DNA from: Thermincola sp.
GTDB taxonomy: Bacteria; Bacillota; Thermincolia; Thermincolales; UBA2595
Assembly (NCBI GenBank): GCA_022735835.1
Contig: DYZU01000133.1
Location: forward strand, 1 to 38,005
Direction: 5' to 3'
Length of the DNA: 38,005 nt
The notes under the pieces are model-generated. The model was not told the origin of the DNA and made no database searches. It worked only from the letters and a program-made list of their open reading frames with translations. Within the stretch, counting starts at the first letter, position 1; each line of letters opens with the position of its first letter. Position numbers and translations under genes: made by a program. Shown here one piece after another: positions 9,310 to 18,593 of the stretch.

Positions 9310-10611
9310 TTACTTCTCTCCCACCAGCCTGCCGGCACATCTCTGGACATTGGCAAGTACTTCTTGTTCGTCTATAGTAATTACTTTTCTGTTTTTCATG
9401 ACGATTTTGCCGTCAATAATCACTGTATCGATATCGGATGACTGGGCGGCGTAAACGGTATGGGCAATTATATCATGCTTGGGATACAAATGAGGTTTTG
9501 TAAAATCAATAAGTATTATGTCGGCTTTATACCCAGGTTCAATCATTCCTATGTCAGCCAACCCCAGAACCATGCCCCCGTTCCTGGTAGCCATTTCCAG
9601 GGCCCGGTAAGAAGGAATGGTTGTCGGGTCACCGGTATTTACTTTATGCAACAGGGCCGCTGACCGCATTTCTTCCAGCATATCCAGGTTGTTGTTGCTG
9701 GCCGCTCCGTCCGTACCCAATCCAACGTTGACCCCTTCCGCCAATAACTGGGGTACGGGAGCTATTCCGCTGGCTAACTTCATGTTACTTTCAGGATTGT
9801 GAGCAACCCCGACCTTTTTCTCTTTTAAAATCCTGATGTCATTTTGGGTAAGGTGGACACAGTGGGCGCCCAGAACAGGAAAATCCAGCACCCCAAGGTC
9901 GTTGACGTACTCAATGGGCGTTTTCCCGTACTGTTTCCTGATATCCTCCACTTCTGCCCCTGTTTCGGCCAGGTGGATGTGGATTCCCACATTAAATTTT
10001 TCTGCCAGGGCCAGGACCTTTTTCAGGTATTCGGGCGGGCAGGTGTAAGGCGCATGCGGTCCCACCATGGTAGTTATGCGCCCGCCGGCCGAACCGTTCC
10101 ATTTTTGGATAAACCGTTCGGTTTCCTCCAAAGCCAGTTGAGCGGTCGGCGCCACTCCTATCATCCCCCTGGCCAGGCTGGCCCTGATTCCGCTTTTTTC
10201 TACCGCCCGGGCCGCTTCGTCCATGAAAAAGTACATATCGGCAAAAGTTGTGGTTCCTGATTTAATCATTTCCAGGATACACAGCATGGTGCCCCAGTAC
10301 ACGTCCTCTCCCGTCAGCCTGTCTTCCAGGGGCCAAATCCGCTGTTCCAGCCATTCCATCAGGGGCAGGTCGTCAGCGTAACTGCGCAGCAGGGTCATGG
10401 CGGCATGGGTGTGGCAGTTGACAAACCCCGGCATGGCCACCATGCCCCGGGCATCGATTTCCTCATCGGCGCCCCAGTTATCCGGGATTGTCCCTGCCTC
10501 TCCAACAAAAACTATTTTATTCCCCTCGACACCTATCTCACCGCCGTAAATCATTGCATCCGCCCCGGTCATGGGAACAACGGTGGCGCCCTTAATCGCT
10601 AATCTGCTCAT
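9310..10611 (-). CDS. mtaD: 5'-methylthioadenosine / S-adenosylhomocysteine deaminase (MtaD/DadD-type amidohydrolase)
   Basis: PGFVNCHTHAAMTLLRSYADDLPLMEWLEQRIWPLE...GPHAPYTC...HLAETGAE...GTDGAASNNNLDMLEEM. Confidence 0.88.
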   Translation of the reverse strand: MSRLAIKGATVVPMTGADAMIYGGEIGVEGNKIVFVGEAGTIPDNWGADEEIDARGMVAMPGFVNCHTHAAMTLLRSYADDLPLMEWLEQRIWPLEDRLTGEDVYWGTMLCILEMIKSGTTTFADMYFFMDEAARAVEKSGIRASLARGMIGVAPTAQLALEETERFIQKWNGSAGGRITTMVGPHAPYTCPPEYLKKVLALAEKFNVGIHIHLAETGAEVEDIRKQYGKTPIEYVNDLGVLDFPVLGAHCVHLTQNDIRILKEKKVGVAHNPESNMKLASGIAPVPQLLAEGVNVGLGTDGAASNNNLDMLEEMRSAALLHKVNTGDPTTIPSYRALEMATRNGGMVLGLADIGMIEPGYKADIILIDFTKPHLYPKHDIIAHTVYAAQSSDIDTVIIDGKIVMKNRKVITIDEQEVLANVQRCAGRLVGEK

Positions 10612-10626
10612 CCTCCGGCCTCCTTC

Positions 10627-11217
10627 TTACCATTTATTATAATCTTTGTTTTTCTTTTCTTTTATATTGCCGTTCAGGGTCCTGGTCAAATAAATAATCT
10701 TACATATGTTCTCCAGGCTGGATGTCCACTGGTAAGCCTCTTCCAGCAACTGGCCGACGGCAAAACTGCCGTGTCCCCTGATCATGACTATTTTATATTC
10801 CTTTAAAAATTCCGGCAGGACCCGGGCCACCTCCGCGGAACCGACGGTGTGTTCAAACCCTATAACCGGAATCTTATGCAGCATGTACTGGCCCTCCGAA
10901 TCGAGGGGAATAATTTCGTCTTCCATCAGCGAGAGGGCAGTTGCGTACACCGGATGGGCATGAACAATGGCCAGGGCCGAAGTATTTTTGTATATCGACC
11001 GGTGGACTCCCACTTCTGTGGAAGCCAGGGTTATATGGCTGTCATTACTTTCCAATCCGGTCTCAATCAGATCGGATTCCTTCAGGTTGTGCAGCATCGA
11101 CCCCCTCCTGGTAATCACCAGCCTGTCTCCCAACCGCACGCTCATATTGCCGCTGTGCGAACTGTTTAACCCCTGCACAAACAGGTCGCGCCCTATTTGA
11201 CTGAACTGACTGTACAT
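10627..11217 (-). CDS. Class II aldolase/adducin family protein (fuculose-phosphate aldolase-like)
   Basis: NSSHSGNMSVRLGDRLVITRRGS...ASTEVGVHRSIY...IVHAHPVYATALS...RGHGSFAVGQLLEEAY; catalytic Glu and three Zn-His positions present. Confidence 0.88.
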   Translation of the reverse strand: MYSQFSQIGRDLFVQGLNSSHSGNMSVRLGDRLVITRRGSMLHNLKESDLIETGLESNDSHITLASTEVGVHRSIYKNTSALAIVHAHPVYATALSLMEDEIIPLDSEGQYMLHKIPVIGFEHTVGSAEVARVLPEFLKEYKIVMIRGHGSFAVGQLLEEAYQWTSSLENICKIIYLTRTLNGNIKEKKNKDYNKW

Positions 11218-12999
11218 TTACCCAACCTCCAGCCCAAGTTCTGACAGCTTCTTGGCCGTAGGAACCCCCTGAACGTCCCATCCTCTGAATCTGTAATAAT
11301 CCCTCAGCATCCTGTCCAGGTAAACAACATGCCCCTTGGACGGGCCGTGTTGCACAGGTTCTTTCAGGAGGCGTTCCGGTAAAGTGTCATCGGCGCTTGA
11401 AAAACCTTCCCGCAAGTTGTACATCCGTTCCAGGTTCCAGATTCTTTCCCCGACAGTATGCAGGTCCTGGGGCTGAAAATCAGCCCCTGTCACGGCAGAC
11501 AACAGCCGGGCAAAGTATTCTTCCGAAACGGTCAAACCCGTGAACCGGCAAATAATCAGAGAGTCCATAGCCGCGTTAAGGTTCTGATAAAAGATGGTCA
11601 GCCCGGCTTTCCCCTCGGTGGAAAACCTGTCCACCATTTTGGGGACGCCAAGGATTTCGGGACCAACCATATATGCCCGGAGGTGGCATCCGCCACGGTT
11701 TGAAGTGGCAAACCCGAGGCCCATGCCCTGAACCCCCCGGGGGTCATATGCCGGGAGTTCCAGCCCCTTGACCTGCATGGCAAACTGCTGGCCGCCATAT
11801 TTACGGGCAAAAGCCCGGGAGCCTTCGGCCAGTTCTTGGCCCAGTCCGCGCCGGTAGGCAATGTCTTCAATCAATGAAGACAGTTTGGCGGCATCGCCAA
11901 ATCTGATATCGGCATCAACCAGTTTTTTGGCGGCCATTTCCATGGCGCAGCCGATGGTGACCCCCACCGATATGGTGTCCAGACCCAGCCGGTTGCAGAG
12001 GTAATTGGCCTCAGCAACGGCTTCCAGGTCATTGATGCCGCACTGGGGGCCCAAAGCCCAGATGGATTCGTACTCCGGCCCTTCCCCGGAATCATTCTTG
12101 GTTTGCGTCAGCCTGGTGCATTTTATCGGACACCCGTAACAGCCTTTTTTCCCCACCAGTATTTTTTCGGCGACAGCTTCCCCCGATATATTCTCGGCAT
12201 CGGGAAACTGGGATTCCTGAAAATTAAATGACGGGAAGATGCCGCATTCGTTCATGAGGTTGACCAGAACAGGAGTGCCGAATTCGGGCAGGCCCTGGGA
12301 AGTGATGGGGTTGGCCTTTATCCACTTGTTGGTCTCATACAGAATAAAAGCCAGCTTTTCCGGATCGGCCGGACGGATCTTCTGCACCCCCTTGACCGCT
12401 ATGGCCTTGAGAAGTTTGGAGCCCATCACGGCGCCCAGACCGCCCCGGCCCAGGGCCCGTGTGTTATCGTTCATAATACAGGAAATCTTAACCCGGTTCT
12501 CACCGGCGGGACCGATACAGGCCACGCTGTATCCCCGCCCTTCGGCCCCGGTGACAGCCCCGGTGGTGTCAGGTACGTTCAGGCCCCAAAGCTTTTGGGC
12601 ATCTTTAAGCACAACTTCTTTTTCATTAATCAATATATATACGGGTTTGGCGGCCTTGCCTTCAATAATTAAGCCATCATAACCGGCCTTTTTTAAGCGT
12701 ACACCCCAAATACCGCCGGAATTCGAGTCAAAAACCGTCCCGGTAAGCGGTGATTTTGATGTTACCGTAAACCGGCCGGAGGTGGGAACTTGGGTACCGG
12801 TCAAAGGTCCCGTCAAAAAAATCAGCTTGTTTTCCGGGGCCAGGGGATCTGTCGGAGGACCTACTTCTTGCCAGAGAATGTGGCAGCCCAGTCCCCGGCC
12901 TCCTAAAAATCTGCTGTAACTGTCATGGCCGGGTTCTTCAATATTGATTTTTTGATCCGTAAGATTAATTCGCAGAATCCTGCCGGTCCACCCGTTCAT
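11218..12999 (-). CDS. Aldehyde:ferredoxin oxidoreductase (tungsten/molybdopterin AOR family)
   Basis: MNGWTGRILRINLTDQKI...LGGRGLGCHIL...GPLTGTQVPTSGRFTVTSKSPLTGTVFDSNSGG...RALGRGGLGAVMGSK...CYGCPIKC...LGLDTISVG. Confidence 0.95.
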   Translation of the reverse strand: MNGWTGRILRINLTDQKINIEEPGHDSYSRFLGGRGLGCHILWQEVGPPTDPLAPENKLIFLTGPLTGTQVPTSGRFTVTSKSPLTGTVFDSNSGGIWGVRLKKAGYDGLIIEGKAAKPVYILINEKEVVLKDAQKLWGLNVPDTTGAVTGAEGRGYSVACIGPAGENRVKISCIMNDNTRALGRGGLGAVMGSKLLKAIAVKGVQKIRPADPEKLAFILYETNKWIKANPITSQGLPEFGTPVLVNLMNECGIFPSFNFQESQFPDAENISGEAVAEKILVGKKGCYGCPIKCTRLTQTKNDSGEGPEYESIWALGPQCGINDLEAVAEANYLCNRLGLDTISVGVTIGCAMEMAAKKLVDADIRFGDAAKLSSLIEDIAYRRGLGQELAEGSRAFARKYGGQQFAMQVKGLELPAYDPRGVQGMGLGFATSNRGGCHLRAYMVGPEILGVPKMVDRFSTEGKAGLTIFYQNLNAAMDSLIICRFTGLTVSEEYFARLLSAVTGADFQPQDLHTVGERIWNLERMYNLREGFSSADDTLPERLLKEPVQHGPSKGHVVYLDRMLRDYYRFRGWDVQGVPTAKKLSELGLEVG

Positions 13000-13050
13000 C
13001 AGGCAAAAGCTCCTTTTCCGATTATTTCCGGTACTTTTTTGAGGTAAGAA

Positions 13051-13281
13051 TCAGCCGCCTCCTATCAGCGGAAAAACACTGACGGCGTCCCCGTCCCGGA
13101 GTTGATAATCGTGGTCGACCCTGACCCCGTTAACAAGCACAAGCGGGGCCTCCTCCAGAGGGACCCCTTTTTTTTGCAGCAGCTGACCGACTGTTAACGT
13201 TTCTTTTAGGTCAATTCTGGTTCGGTCACCTTTACTCTGATATTTTCGTAGGGAGGCGAACAGCTTGAGTTCAACCTGCAT
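13051..13281 (-). CDS. MoaD/ThiS family sulfur-carrier protein
   Basis: 76-aa beta-grasp protein ending VSVFPLIGGG, adjacent to AOR. Confidence 0.88.
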   Translation of the reverse strand: MQVELKLFASLRKYQSKGDRTRIDLKETLTVGQLLQKKGVPLEEAPLVLVNGVRVDHDYQLRDGDAVSVFPLIGGG

Positions 13282-13282
13282 G

Positions 13283-14536
13283 TTATTCCCCGTGCTCCCA
13301 TCCGTATAAATACTCTTCCTGTTCCGGTGTCAAACGGTCTATCCCCATGCCAAGAGATTTCAGTTTTATTTCAGCCACTCTCTTGTCTATTTCCTCAGTA
13401 ACCCGGTAGACCCTCTTCTCCAGGTTCCTGCCGTTTTCTAACATGTGCCTGGCTGACAAAGCCTGGAGAGCAAATGACATATCCATGATCTCGGCCGGAT
13501 GGCCGTCTCCGGCCGCCAGGTTGACCAGTCTTCCCTCGGCCAGCAGGTACAGCTTTCTTCCGTCGGGCATGGCAAACTCTTCAATGTTCTGCCTGACAAC
13601 CCGGCTGCCTGCAGAGCTCTCTTTCAGTTCGGGTTTATTGATTTCCACGTCAAAGTGCCCGGCATTGGCCAGGAGCGCTCCGTTTTTCATTTTTGCGTAA
13701 TGCCTGCCTCTGATAACATCCTTACACCCGGTAACCGTAATGAATACATCACCCAGCCCAGCCGCTTCATCCATGCTCATGACACGGAATCCGTCCATAT
13801 GGGCTTCGATGGCCTTGATGGGGTCAATTTCGGTAATAATGACTCTGGCGCCCAAACCCCTGGCCTTCATGGCGATTCCCTTGCCGCACCAGCCGTATCC
13901 GGCCACAACCACAGTCTTCCCGGCAACTATCAGGTTGGTGGTTCTCATGATACCCGTCCAGACTGACTCCCCGGTACCATACCGGTTATCAAACAGGTAT
14001 TTACAGAAGGCATCATTTACGGCCATCATGGGAAACTTCAGGAGCCCCGCCTTTTCCATGGCTTTTAAGCGCATAACTCCGGTTGTGGTCTCCTCGCAAC
14101 CGCCGATAACCTGGCCGGCCAGATGGCTGCACTCATTATGCAGGAGGTTAACCAGGTCTCCCCCGTCATCAATCACAATTTCCGGTTTGGTTTCCAGGAC
14201 TTTGACCAGGTGCTCCTTATATTCCTCCGCAGTTGCATTATACCACGCAAAAACCTTTATCCCGTCATCAAGAAGAGCGGCGGCCACGTCATCCTGGGTC
14301 GAGAGAGGGTTGCTCCCGGTGATAGCCACCTCAGCGCCGCCTGCCTTTAAGACTTTGGCCAGATAGGCGGTTTTGGCTTCCAGATGGATGCTGACCGCAA
14401 TTTTTACCCCCTGAAAGGGTTTGGTTTCTTCGAATTCCCTGCGAATTTCGTTTAACACGGGCATGTGTTCCTTAACCCAGTCAATCTTCAGCCTGCCTGA
14501 AGGCGCAAGACCGATGTCCCTGACGATATAGTCCAT
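13283..14536 (-). CDS. ahcY: Adenosylhomocysteinase family protein (possibly S-inosylhomocysteine hydrolase)
   Basis: [15 protein letters not shown]...[16 protein letters not shown]...[31 protein letters not shown]...NAGHFDVEI...[23 protein letters not shown] at 14536 preceded by AAAGGAGGG. Confidence 0.95.
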
Positions 14537-14555
14537 GGTGAAACCCTCCTTTAAC

Positions 14556-15584
14556 TTAAAACAATGCTCGCAGGCTCTCCTCATAGGGTGGCCTGACAAT
14601 GCCCCGGTCGGTGATGATTGCCGTTACCAGATAATTTGGCGTGACATCAAAGGCCGGGTTAAATACCCTGACCCCTCTGGGGGCTATCTCCTGCCCGCCG
14701 ATGGTGGTTATTTCCACCGATTCTCGCTCCTCTATCGGGATTTCATCACCCGCAGCAAGAGTCATGTCGATGGTTGAGACAGGAGCGGCCACATAAAACG
14801 GAATGCCGTGTTCCTTGCATAAAACGGCTACGGTATATGTCCCTATTTTATTGGCCACATCCCCGTTGCCGGTGATCCGGTCAGCCCCCACAACGGCCAG
14901 GTCGATGCGGCCTTTTTTCATCAGGTATCCCGCCATGCTGTCGGTAATCAATGTCACCGGGATTTTATCCTGCATCAATTCCCAGGCGGTCAGGCGCGCT
15001 CCCTGCAGCAGCGGGCGTGTCTCGTCGGCGAAGACCTGGATCTGCTTGCCTGCTTCATGGGCAGCCCTGATCACGCCGAGAGCGGTTCCATATCCTGCCG
15101 TCGCCAGGGCTCCGGCATTGCAGTGGGTCAATATGCCGGCCCGCCGGGGAACAAGTGAATTGCCGTATTCGCCTATCTTCCGGTTCATCTCAAGGTCTTC
15201 CTGTAATATTTTATGGGCTTCCTGCAGCAGTAGTTCTTTTAGTTCCGAAACATCATCGGAGTGGGTGTCATAAACAACCTTCATCATTCTCTTCAGAGCC
15301 CAGAAAAGGTTGACCGCGGTAGGCCTGGTGGACCCCAGCAGTTCCGAAATCTTTTGGAGGCTCTCAATAAACGACTCCTTGTCTGTACTGTTGTCCTGAA
15401 CAGCTCCCAGAGCCAGGCCGTAAGCGGCTGCGGCCCCAATGGCAGGCGCTCCCCTGACCTTCATGGTTTTTATAGCTTCTGCCACTTCCTCCGGTTTTTT
15501 GCACCTGACGTATCTTACCTCTGCCGGCAGCCTGGTCTGGTCCAGCAAAACAAGGCAGCCGTTGTACCAATCCATAGTTTTCAT
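14556..15584 (-). CDS. mtnA: Methylthioribose-1-phosphate isomerase (5-deoxyribose-1-phosphate isomerase-like)
   Basis: [19 protein letters not shown]...NCNAGALAT-like [23 protein letters not shown]...[17 protein letters not shown]...[20 protein letters not shown]. Confidence 0.95.
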
Positions 15585-15626
15585 CACAAACACCTTTTTG
15601 CTAAATATTTACGAGATATATTTCCC

Positions 15627-16418
15627 CTACCCCAGGGAACCGAGCTCTTCCAGGGCACACTGGCACTCGCAGTTTCGTTCCGGCGGCATAATTTCGATGG
15701 TTTTGACAAGCAGCTTCTTCAGGTTTTCATTATTCTTTCTCATGGCTTCCAAAACTTCCGCATGGGTCAAGGGCGTGGGGGATATCCCGGCAGCAAAATT
15801 GGTGACCATGGCGATGGTCGCGTAACAAATCTCCGCTTCACGGGCCAGTACCACCTCGGGAACACTGGTCATCCCCACCAGGTCTCCCCCCAGGGAACTG
15901 TACATTTTGATTTCCGCAGGGGTTTCAAAACGGGGGCCCTCGGTGCATACATATGTCCCTTTAGTCTTCAGAGGCATACCTAATATTTTGGCTGCTTCCA
16001 TAATCACTTTCCTTAATTCGGGGCAGTAAGGGTTAGTCATGTCTATATGAACAACACCCTTTTCCCCTTCCTCATAAAAGGTTTGGACCCTGTTTCGTGT
16101 AAAATCGATAAACTGGTCCACCAGGATAAATTCGCCCGGCCTCATTTCCAGGTTCAGGGAACCGACAGCCCCGGTGGCCAGAATTCTGACCACCCCCAGT
16201 TTCTTCAGGGCCATGATGTTGCCCCTGTAATTCACCTTATGGGGTGGGACCGCGTGGTCCTCTCCGTGCCTGGGCAGAAAGGCCACCGGTATCCCGTTGT
16301 ATTCCCCGGTTTTTACCTTAATCAGGCCAAAATCTGTTCTCACGTTTTCTTCGGAAACAGATGACAAAATTTTCGGGTCATAAAGCCCTGTCCCGCCGAT
16401 TATTCCTATTTTAATCAT
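15627..16418 (-). CDS. S-methyl-5'-thioadenosine/thioinosine phosphorylase
   Basis: [12 protein letters not shown]...[22 protein letters not shown]...[15 protein letters not shown]...[32 protein letters not shown]. Confidence 0.9.
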
Positions 16419-16438: not shown

Positions 16439-17350
16439 TCAATCTTCAAAAAGGGCATCCACAAACTCCGCCGGATTGAACTCTTTTAAATCGTCAATTT
16501 TTTCGCCTATTCCTACGAATTTAACCGGGATATCAAGTTCGGCTTTAATGCCGATAACCACTCCGCCCTTGGCCGTCCCATCCAGCTTGGTAAGCGCTAT
16601 CCCGGTAACCCCGGCAGCTTCTGCAAAGAGCTTCGCCTGGCTGATGGCATTCTGGCCTGTAGCGGCATCCAGCACCAGCAATACCTCATGAGGGGCGCCG
16701 GGCATTTCCCTGGAGATAACCCGAAACACTTTCTTCAATTCCTCCATCAGGTTGGTCTTGGTATGAAGCCTCCCCGCGGTATCTATGATCAATACGTCCG
16801 ATTCCCTGGCTTTGGCGGCCTGCACTGCATCATAAACCACGGCGGCCGGGTCGGCCCCCTCTTTATGTTTGATCACGTCACAGCCGACGCGTTTGCCCCA
16901 TATTTCCAGCTGGTCAATGGCAGCTGCCCGGAATGTATCCCCGGCAGCCAGCAGGACTTTCCTGCCTTCCTGTTTGAGATTGTGAGCGAGTTTCCCGAGG
17001 GTTGTGGTTTTGCCAACCCCGTTAACACCGATGACCACCAGTATCGCCGGTTTACCCCCGAGATTTAAAGCGCTTTTTTCATCCCTCAAAATTTCCTTAA
17101 TCAGCTCTTTTAGTACATTTTTCAGCTCAGAGGCATCTTCTATTCTTCTCTCTTTGACAGCCTTTCTCAGGTTTTCCACCAGTTCCATGGCCGTGGTGAC
17201 ACCCACATCAGCCTGGATCAACAGTTCCTCAATCTCGTCGTAAAGCTCCTCGTCAATCTTTTTGCCTCCGCTGACCAGGTTTTCTATTTTATTGAAAAAA
17301 CCCTGTCTGGTTTTAGTCAAACCCTCTTTTAGTCTGGAAAAAAAACCCAT
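16439..17350 (-). CDS. ftsY: Signal recognition particle receptor FtsY
   Basis: [19 protein letters not shown]...[16 protein letters not shown]...[18 protein letters not shown]...[10 protein letters not shown]. Confidence 0.97.
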
Positions 17351-17447: not shown

Positions 17448-18593
17448 TCATAACCGGCCTGTTATCTCAATCGGTTTACACAAATTAGTATACTCCTGAG
17501 CCACACCAAATTTGCGGTTGCGTATTTCCGCCTCTTCTTCCGGTGTATTTGCCTCAAAAAACTTTAAGCCCAGTTCCTCATCCTCATCGGCAAGGTCGTA
17601 TACCTCCCTTAGGGCCTTAATCACGGTGGCTCCCCGGACAGCCCCTTCATTATCATGTCCGATGGCAACTATCGGCCTCCCCCACGAACCCGGTCCGGCA
17701 CTGGCGTCGCCGATGTGCATAACCCCTGTTCCCCCCGGATGGGTATGAACAATCACACCATTGGGCGGGATCATACCCGCGTAAATTTCCCGCAGCGATT
17801 TTTGGGAAATGTCAACACAACTGGAGGCCAGAATACGCGAAGGAACATACCCGATTCCGCCAACCACTATACCCCCTTTTTGAGTTATATGCCCGTTCTC
17901 GTCAACCACTCCGATGGCTGCAACTTCCCTGCCCTGCCCAACCTCCATGGATTTGGCCACCAGTTTCCTGGCAAATTCTCCTGATATGGAATTAACATCC
18001 GGTTTTGGTAAAATAAATTGTTTTCTGTTGTTGGTCCTGTAAACCGGCTCTGTTTCCGGGACATCAACAATGTCGAGACCCAATGATAATTCCAGGTATT
18101 TCAGACTGAGCTCCGTTGATGCCCTTAAAACCTCCTTTTCCTCCTCCACAGTGCGTGCCGCCAGAATTTTTAAATCAACTTCTTCCGATTGGGTCGCCAA
18201 GTCAAAATACTCTCTTTGCGGGTAAATAATTCCGATCCCGGCCATTTCTCCATTTTTGACACCTATAGCGATAATAGGAATGTTAAAGAAATCGATCCCG
18301 CTGACATCGGTGATCAGACCCGTTTTGCCGGGCCGGGTAGTTATCATCACCGCATTGGCGGGAAGCATCTCCAGCCCTTCAATTAAGCTCTTTCCTTTCA
18401 TGTCAGTTATGTTGTCAAGAAGTTTTCTCAGAGGTAAACCGCTGAGCCCGCCGAGGACAACGGGAGTCATTCTGTCCACAATGCCCTGTTGGTTCAGCAA
18501 CCCGAAACACCCGGCATTACGCCCCTGGCTGATTTGAACGGTTTTTTCTACGAGTTTTTCCGCGATATATCTGGCAATTCCCTTTACTTGCAC
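17448..18593 (-). CDS. Conserved protein of two tandem homologous domains, C-terminal copy with JAMM/MPN-like HxHP-x9-D motif
   Basis: Manual self-alignment of N- and C-terminal halves; GTG start with GGGGGAA upstream. Confidence 0.6.
   Translation of the reverse strand: MQVKGIARYIAEKLVEKTVQISQGRNAGCFGLLNQQGIVDRMTPVVLGGLSGLPLRKLLDNITDMKGKSLIEGLEMLPANAVMITTRPGKTGLITDVSGIDFFNIPIIAIGVKNGEMAGIGIIYPQREYFDLATQSEEVDLKILAARTVEEEKEVLRASTELSLKYLELSLGLDIVDVPETEPVYRTNNRKQFILPKPDVNSISGEFARKLVAKSMEVGQGREVAAIGVVDENGHITQKGGIVVGGIGYVPSRILASSCVDISQKSLREIYAGMIPPNGVIVHTHPGGTGVMHIGDASAGPGSWGRPIVAIGHDNEGAVRGATVIKALREVYDLADEDEELGLKFFEANTPEEEAEIRNRKFGVAQEYTNLCKPIEITGRL

Follow-up and report, generated by a model that had tools for sequence, protein, structure and literature searches.

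An aldehyde:ferredoxin oxidoreductase paired with a class II aldolase in a Thermincola operon suggests an anaerobic variant of the dihydroxyacetone phosphate shunt

The window analysed here is the whole 38,005-nucleotide stretch of contig DYZU01000133.1 from a Thermincola sp. draft genome (assembly GCA_022735835.1; 1.96 Mb, 75% complete). Our subject is a minus-strand operon of seven genes at positions 9310-16418, in the order mtnP-mtnA-ahcY-moaD-AOR-class II aldolase-mtaD/dadD, where AOR denotes an aldehyde:ferredoxin oxidoreductase. An earlier note, made from the sequence alone, had described seven co-directional and tightly packed genes and proposed that the AOR oxidises an aldehyde released during salvage of S-adenosylmethionine (SAM) by-products. 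The arrangement is as described, all seven genes lying on the minus strand, and family scans, in which bit scores were compared with curated cut-offs, agree with the gene identities then given:

15627..16418, minus strand: mtnP-like nucleoside phosphorylase of the MTAP family (TIGR01694, 311 bits, cut-off 275; base motif TNFAAG)
14556..15584, minus strand: mtnA, (5-methylthio/5-deoxy)ribose-1-phosphate isomerase (TIGR00512, 469 bits, cut-off 279)
13283..14536, minus strand: ahcY, S-adenosyl- (or S-inosyl-) homocysteine hydrolase (TIGR00936, 635 bits, cut-off 498)
13051..13281, minus strand: MoaD/ThiS-like small protein with C-terminal GGG (PF02597, 42.5 bits, cut-off 22.5; PF14451 above cut-off)
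11218..12999, minus strand: tungsten-type AOR (AFOR_N/AFOR_C, PF02730/PF01314, 270/503 bits)
10627..11217, minus strand: class II aldolase of the SSH(S/G)GN subfamily (PF00596; NF006413, 254 bits, cut-off 203)
9310..10611, minus strand: mtaD/dadD-type amidohydrolase (PF01979, 296 bits; closest solved structure 4f0r)
16439..17350, minus strand: ftsY, the upstream neighbour, which precedes mtnP in every operon-bearing relative

Both junctions singled out in the earlier note were read on the sequence: the aldolase ATG (11217) directly abuts the AOR stop codon TAA (11220-11218), and one nucleotide separates the ahcY stop from the moaD ATG (TAA-C-ATG). The ahcY start was corrected to the ATG at 14536, from an upstream TTG at 14599, on the basis of a ribosome-binding site (AGGAGG) and homologue starts, and homologue starts likewise place that of mtnA at the ATG at 15584. 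No NCBIfam equivalog scored above its cut-off for the mtaD/dadD-type amidohydrolase in the family scan; its nearest solved structure (302 bits) is a deaminase of 5'-methylthioadenosine (MTA) and S-adenosylhomocysteine (SAH). Terminator-like hairpins, which are consensus pattern matches only, lie on the minus strand at 17441-17412, before ftsY, and at 9008-8979, after mtaD, so that the transcription unit may begin with ftsY and comprise ftsY-mtnP-mtnA-ahcY-moaD-AOR-aldolase-mtaD; the interval between ftsY and mtnP holds no terminator-like site, and a search of the window for riboswitches or other RNA control elements gave 0 Rfam matches. Directly upstream of ftsY, in all class relatives examined, is the gene for a 381-residue protein without a Pfam match (17448-18593, minus strand in the window), and a homologue (58%) is also found at the G013 and G059 loci described below.

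It is likely that this operon encodes an anaerobic variant of the dihydroxyacetone phosphate (DHAP) shunt for SAM by-products, in which the AOR would take up the aldehyde from the adjoining aldolase and oxidise it. In the proposed route, the MtaD/DadD-type enzyme would deaminate 5'-deoxyadenosine, MTA and SAH, and AhcY would cleave the homocysteine nucleoside. The MtnP-like phosphorylase would then yield 5-deoxyribose-1-phosphate or methylthioribose-1-phosphate together with hypoxanthine, and MtnA would isomerise these sugars to their ribulose-1-phosphate forms. Cleavage of 5-deoxyribulose-1-phosphate or methylthioribulose-1-phosphate by the class II aldolase would give DHAP and acetaldehyde or (methylthio)acetaldehyde, which the AOR, running in the oxidative direction and presumably with tungsten, would convert to acetate or (methylthio)acetate while handing two electrons to an acceptor, most likely ferredoxin, a step from which the cell may gain energy.

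The predicted activities are consistent with intact catalytic sites. In the AOR, the 4Fe-4S cysteines C287, C290, C294 and C484 and the active-site H439 are invariant and the active-site E311 is nearly so; its structural model (pLDDT 95) superposes on 9mqx (the best match, TM-score 0.99), 9g7j and 1aor (0.98) with TM-scores of 0.98-0.99. Genes for the partner NADH and FeS subunits of the electron-bifurcating 9mqx type are not found beside the AOR in the window. The aldolase metal ligands E68, H86, H88 and H149 are likewise invariant, and the aldolase model is nearest to the Thermus thermophilus fuculose-1-phosphate aldolase 2fk5 (TM-score 0.88, 39% identity).

The order of the first steps is indicated by the phosphorylase, whose base-recognition site reads TNFAAG (TN-x-AAG) where solved MTA phosphorylases have TDYD. 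The TN motif is present in every mtaD-linked homologue tested; where TDYD is found, mtaD does not lie close by or, in L157, the enzyme is the second paralogue. In purine nucleoside phosphorylases an Asn at the base site favours 6-oxopurines; deamination therefore probably precedes phosphorolysis. Judged from this motif, the enzyme is probably specific for 5'-methylthioinosine (MTI) and 5'-deoxyinosine, the route passing through deaminated nucleosides, and deamination also comes first in the MTI route of Pseudomonas (PMC6302742). Among 13 genomes none has an MTA/SAH nucleosidase above cut-off. A source of MTA is present in the form of spermidine synthase (two copies in the window's genome), and radical-SAM genes number 30 in this draft and 39-51 in near-complete operon-bearing relatives.

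The AORs closest to that of the window are found in the metagenome-assembled genomes UBA2595 (85% identity), SKS1.bin35 (81%), 'Thermincola ferriacetica BM5_bin.18' (77%) and HGW-Firmicutes-14 (76%); the description Thermincolia-like, as used here, is based on the third of these names. Gene order is kept in four members of the window's own, Thermincolia-like family (G008, G004, G003 and G009; AOR 76-85% identical) and in two of a second family (G013 and G059; 63%), which with the window makes 7 genomes in 2 families, mostly without moaD. A third family contributes G276, where the order is sugar ATP-binding cassette (ABC) transporter-mtnA-binding protein-mtnK-AOR-aldolase and mtnK scores 536 bits with TIGR01767. 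Altogether mtnA, AOR and SSH(S/G)GN aldolase occur together in 8 genomes of 3 families; the placing of an AOR next to mtnA is thus not peculiar to this genome. Genus g19 (L080-L086) has AORs at a distance of 10-17 kb from its mtnA; these were rejected as part of the system because they belong to another AOR branch, are often preceded by a ferredoxin-like protein and have no adjoining aldolase.

Relatives that depart from this order serve as natural controls. In G001 the order is mtnP-mtnA-ahcY-aldolase-mtaD, the aldolase being of the window's type, and the AOR is missing. The mtn operons of G002 and of several further Bacillota likewise lack an AOR, and their aldolase is TWGN-type. In G005-G007 (L150, L151 and L152) the operon is mtnP-mtnA-ahcY-mtaD, which includes neither an AOR nor an aldolase gene to act on the ribulose-1-phosphate. 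This distribution implies that the AOR tracks the SSH(S/G)GN aldolase and not the mtn genes as such. In the aldolase tree the G001 enzyme groups within the branch of its G013 counterpart, which suggests that G001 lost its AOR.

A survey of 399 genomes of the phylum found mtnA (E <= 0.001) in 316 and the SSH(S/G)GN aldolase (E <= 1e-25) in 27. An AOR directly adjoins this aldolase in 15 of the 27, against a chance expectation of ~0.1 that assumes ~5 AORs per ~2800 genes (our own estimate), and the adjacency exceeds chance. The same coupling is seen in AOR trees, one of 81 rows and a careful one of 53 rows, built from a sample in which window-like AORs are over-represented. In both trees all aldolase-linked AORs form one clade (ultrafast bootstrap/SH-aLRT 99/98 in the 53-row tree). 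In the 81-row tree, where the Pyrococcus furiosus AOR falls outside this clade, an aldolase gene immediately follows the AOR in 39 of the 43 clade members, compared with none of the 34 informative loci outside it; the loci were retrieved by AOR sequence, and the aldolase label therefore did not steer the sampling. At least six phyla are represented. Members from Bacillota and Chloroflexota carry the short SSH(S/G)GN aldolase, while in the other half of the clade (Thermodesulfobacteriota, Spirochaetota, Omnitrophota and Myxococcota) its place is taken by a protein of 380-430 residues with a C-terminal Aldolase_II domain, G261 being the one exception. The N-terminal half of these longer proteins has no Pfam match and no obvious sugar genes lie nearby (L111, L113-L121, L125-L128, L134, L143, L145 and L147). 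Residue 91 of the AOR (window numbering) is Asp in 40 of 42 clade rows and mostly Ala, Cys or Ser elsewhere; two residues away is Asn93, which we take to be near the pterin site, and Asp91 is a candidate determinant of substrate or partner specificity.

An aldolase tree, which did not include Ald2 itself, divides TWGN-type aldolases from the SSH(S/G)GN branch with 100/99 support. Aldolases linked to mtn genes in the window's family, G013 and G001 group together (97/87), and that of G276 falls elsewhere, with G209 and G176 (98/90). The tree thus suggests that the pair joined mtn genes twice independently, which we do not claim, as a single mtn origin is compatible with the data (approximately unbiased test, p 0.107).

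These results support the central proposal of the earlier note, that the AOR handles the aldolase-derived aldehyde in SAM by-product salvage, through operons conserved in several families, the mtnK-linked G276 locus and the AOR clade. Two of its parts fare less well. The aldolase is not of the DHAP-shunt kind usual in mtn operons, as it lies outside the TWGN branch and shares 19% identity with DrdA (6btd) in a structure alignment. Nor is the MoaD-like protein a conserved partner of the AOR: the co-occurrence of AOR with mtnA and aldolase recurs across genomes but MoaD is not conserved with them. Of the operons compared, those of the window and G004 alone have its gene between ahcY and the AOR, and those of G008, G003, G009, G013 and G059 lack it at that place. 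A dedicated AOR protein partner is rejected on this distribution, and it is more likely that the protein serves tungstopterin (cofactor) synthesis. A second AOR in the window's genome (L003, G000:C35; 37% identical) has an adjoining MoaD-like gene of its own.

Outside the mtn setting the pair accompanies other deoxysugar genes. In G390 a sugar ABC transporter and MoaD-AOR-aldolase lie with L-fucose isomerase (1123 bits) and a rhamnulokinase-like kinase. Among Chloroflexota, L097 has L-rhamnose isomerase above cut-off, rhaM (PF05336) and a rhamnulokinase-like kinase beside the pair, L098 has L-fucose isomerase, and FGGY kinases are found in L094, L095 and, by the AOR, in L093. LutA/LutB-like lactate-oxidation proteins also adjoin the pair in L093 (L093:11455-13736), and these would fit lactate as the AOR product. 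The AOR and aldolase genes are contiguous or overlapping in most Bacillota, and 1-116 nucleotides separate them in Chloroflexota. Depending on the genome, the context of the pair is thus SAM by-product salvage or the catabolism of L-fucose or L-rhamnose, each of which yields DHAP and a short aldehyde; a parallel between the fucose/rhamnose routes (to DHAP and lactaldehyde) and those for SAM by-products has been drawn for E. coli (PMC10986504). Its recurrence among the fucose and rhamnose genes of other phyla gives the pair the look of a metabolic module that can be reused. We regard it as fairly probable that these AORs are an ancient, dedicated clade of aldolase-coupled tungsten enzymes, forming with the aldolase a two-gene module that would convert deoxysugar 1-phosphates to DHAP, an acid and low-potential electrons. 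This aldolase subfamily is also found in further Bacillota, for the most part with no AOR, where its gene clusters with genes for a ROK kinase, a ThiF-like protein or M20 peptidase and, in many cases, a MoaD-like protein (L195-L204, in G118, G011, G082, G046, G123, G087, G117, G041, G282 and G039); in G285 and G329 a cluster of this kind includes the AOR.

Several observations weigh against a DHAP-shunt role for the operon. The absence of the AOR from G001, and of both AOR and aldolase from G005-G007, means that the AOR step is dispensable in some lineages. No gene for ferredoxin or another electron carrier lies beside the AOR in the window, and AORs are reversible. The substrate of the aldolase here is not fixed by sequence, because the same subfamily works in other sugar contexts. 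It could accordingly be argued that the pair is a general deoxysugar module that was inserted beside the mtn genes, with other sugar 1-phosphates such as L-fuculose-1-phosphate as its real substrates and the SAM-derived sugar disposed of otherwise. The association with fucI, rhaI and FGGY kinases elsewhere, the annotation of the closest solved aldolase as a fuculose-1-phosphate aldolase and the aldolase-free operons of G005-G007 are all in keeping with such an insertion. We nevertheless consider it unlikely, since in 7 genomes of 2 families the pair keeps its place between ahcY and mtaD, in operons that contain neither a sugar kinase nor a transporter, G001 retains the same type of aldolase at that position without the AOR, and the pair in G276 goes with mtnK and mtnA.

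Alternatively, the AOR may be a co-transcribed general aldehyde detoxifier, with an alcohol dehydrogenase from another locus reducing the product of the aldolase. Canonical AORs act on a wide range of aldehydes, the G001 operon is otherwise equal but has no AOR, and known DHAP shunts mainly reduce the aldehyde to an alcohol (PMC10986504). A bystander would, however, hardly be expected to show clade-wide adjacency to the aldolase across at least six phyla, with overlapping or abutting genes, and this explanation has in our view a small chance of being correct. Reverse operation of the AOR, by which an acid would be reduced to an aldehyde and condensed with DHAP by the aldolase into a deoxysugar phosphate, is highly improbable: aldolases are reversible, and AOR with alcohol dehydrogenase reduces acetate in P. 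furiosus and acetogens, going by work cited in PMC11328732, but the remaining operon genes feed the ribulose-1-phosphate side, and the clusters for fucose and rhamnose serve catabolism, as they contain ABC transporters and, in L093, the LutA/LutB-like proteins. Reduction of acids by ferredoxin is, moreover, favourable only at very low aldehyde levels.

Disposal of SAM by-products through the aldolase and AOR, which is the reading we prefer, bears on a physiological problem, as 5'-deoxyadenosine is an inhibitory waste product of radical-SAM enzymes whose disposal in strict anaerobes is only partly known, and disposal strategies other than those known must exist (PMC6079011). If the proposal is correct, the toxic aldehyde would not be lost as an alcohol but would be converted to an acid and probably reduced ferredoxin, and one large group among the many AOR paralogues would gain a physiological role. 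The module would likewise be an anaerobic aldehyde outlet other than alcohol formation or NAD-linked dehydrogenases, with SAM by-products, L-fucose and L-rhamnose as inputs, and tungsten-dependent breakdown of fucose and rhamnose would be predicted in Chloroflexota. In the open-access literature we found no prior description of an AOR coupled to the aldehyde step of the DHAP shunt or to a class II aldolase, nor of one tied to lactaldehyde, fucose or rhamnose; what appears to be new is a DHAP-shunt variant resting on a more general AOR-aldolase module.

The known DHAP shunt for MTA and 5'-deoxyadenosine, which uses MtnP or Pfs/MtnK, MtnA and Ald2 in R. rubrum and E. coli ATCC 25922, resembles the operon in its adjacent phosphorylase and MtnA genes and in a class II aldolase with an intact metal site, but differs in that here deamination probably comes first and an AOR would take the place of the alcohol dehydrogenase for the aldehyde. 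Ordinary mtn operons have TWGN-type aldolases, whereas that of the window belongs to a separate class II branch. The DrdK-DrdI-DrdA pathway of Bacillus thuringiensis (PMC6079011) follows the same logic of isomerase and class II aldolase in an operon of mtn-like genes, and a phosphorylase version of 5-deoxyribose disposal is mentioned in that study; AOR and ferredoxin do not figure in its description, and DrdA is the distant aldolase noted above. Deamination before phosphorolysis, as proposed here, with a DadD/MtaD-type deaminase and an inosine-type phosphorylase, is shared with the MTI route of P. aeruginosa and DadD of Methanocaldococcus jannaschii, the difference being that here these functions stand in one operon with aldolase and AOR. 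The FucI/K/A and RhaA/B/D pathways similarly proceed through isomerase, kinase and class II aldolase to DHAP and lactaldehyde, and the AOR-aldolase pair of Chloroflexota and some Bacillota seems to replace FucA or RhaD together with lactaldehyde dehydrogenase. Compared with the AORs of P. furiosus (1aor) and C. autoethanogenum (9g7j), the window's enzyme has the whole fold, the 4Fe-4S cysteines and the active-site His and Glu in common, but belongs to a separate clade that is defined by its linkage to a class II aldolase and shares Asp91.

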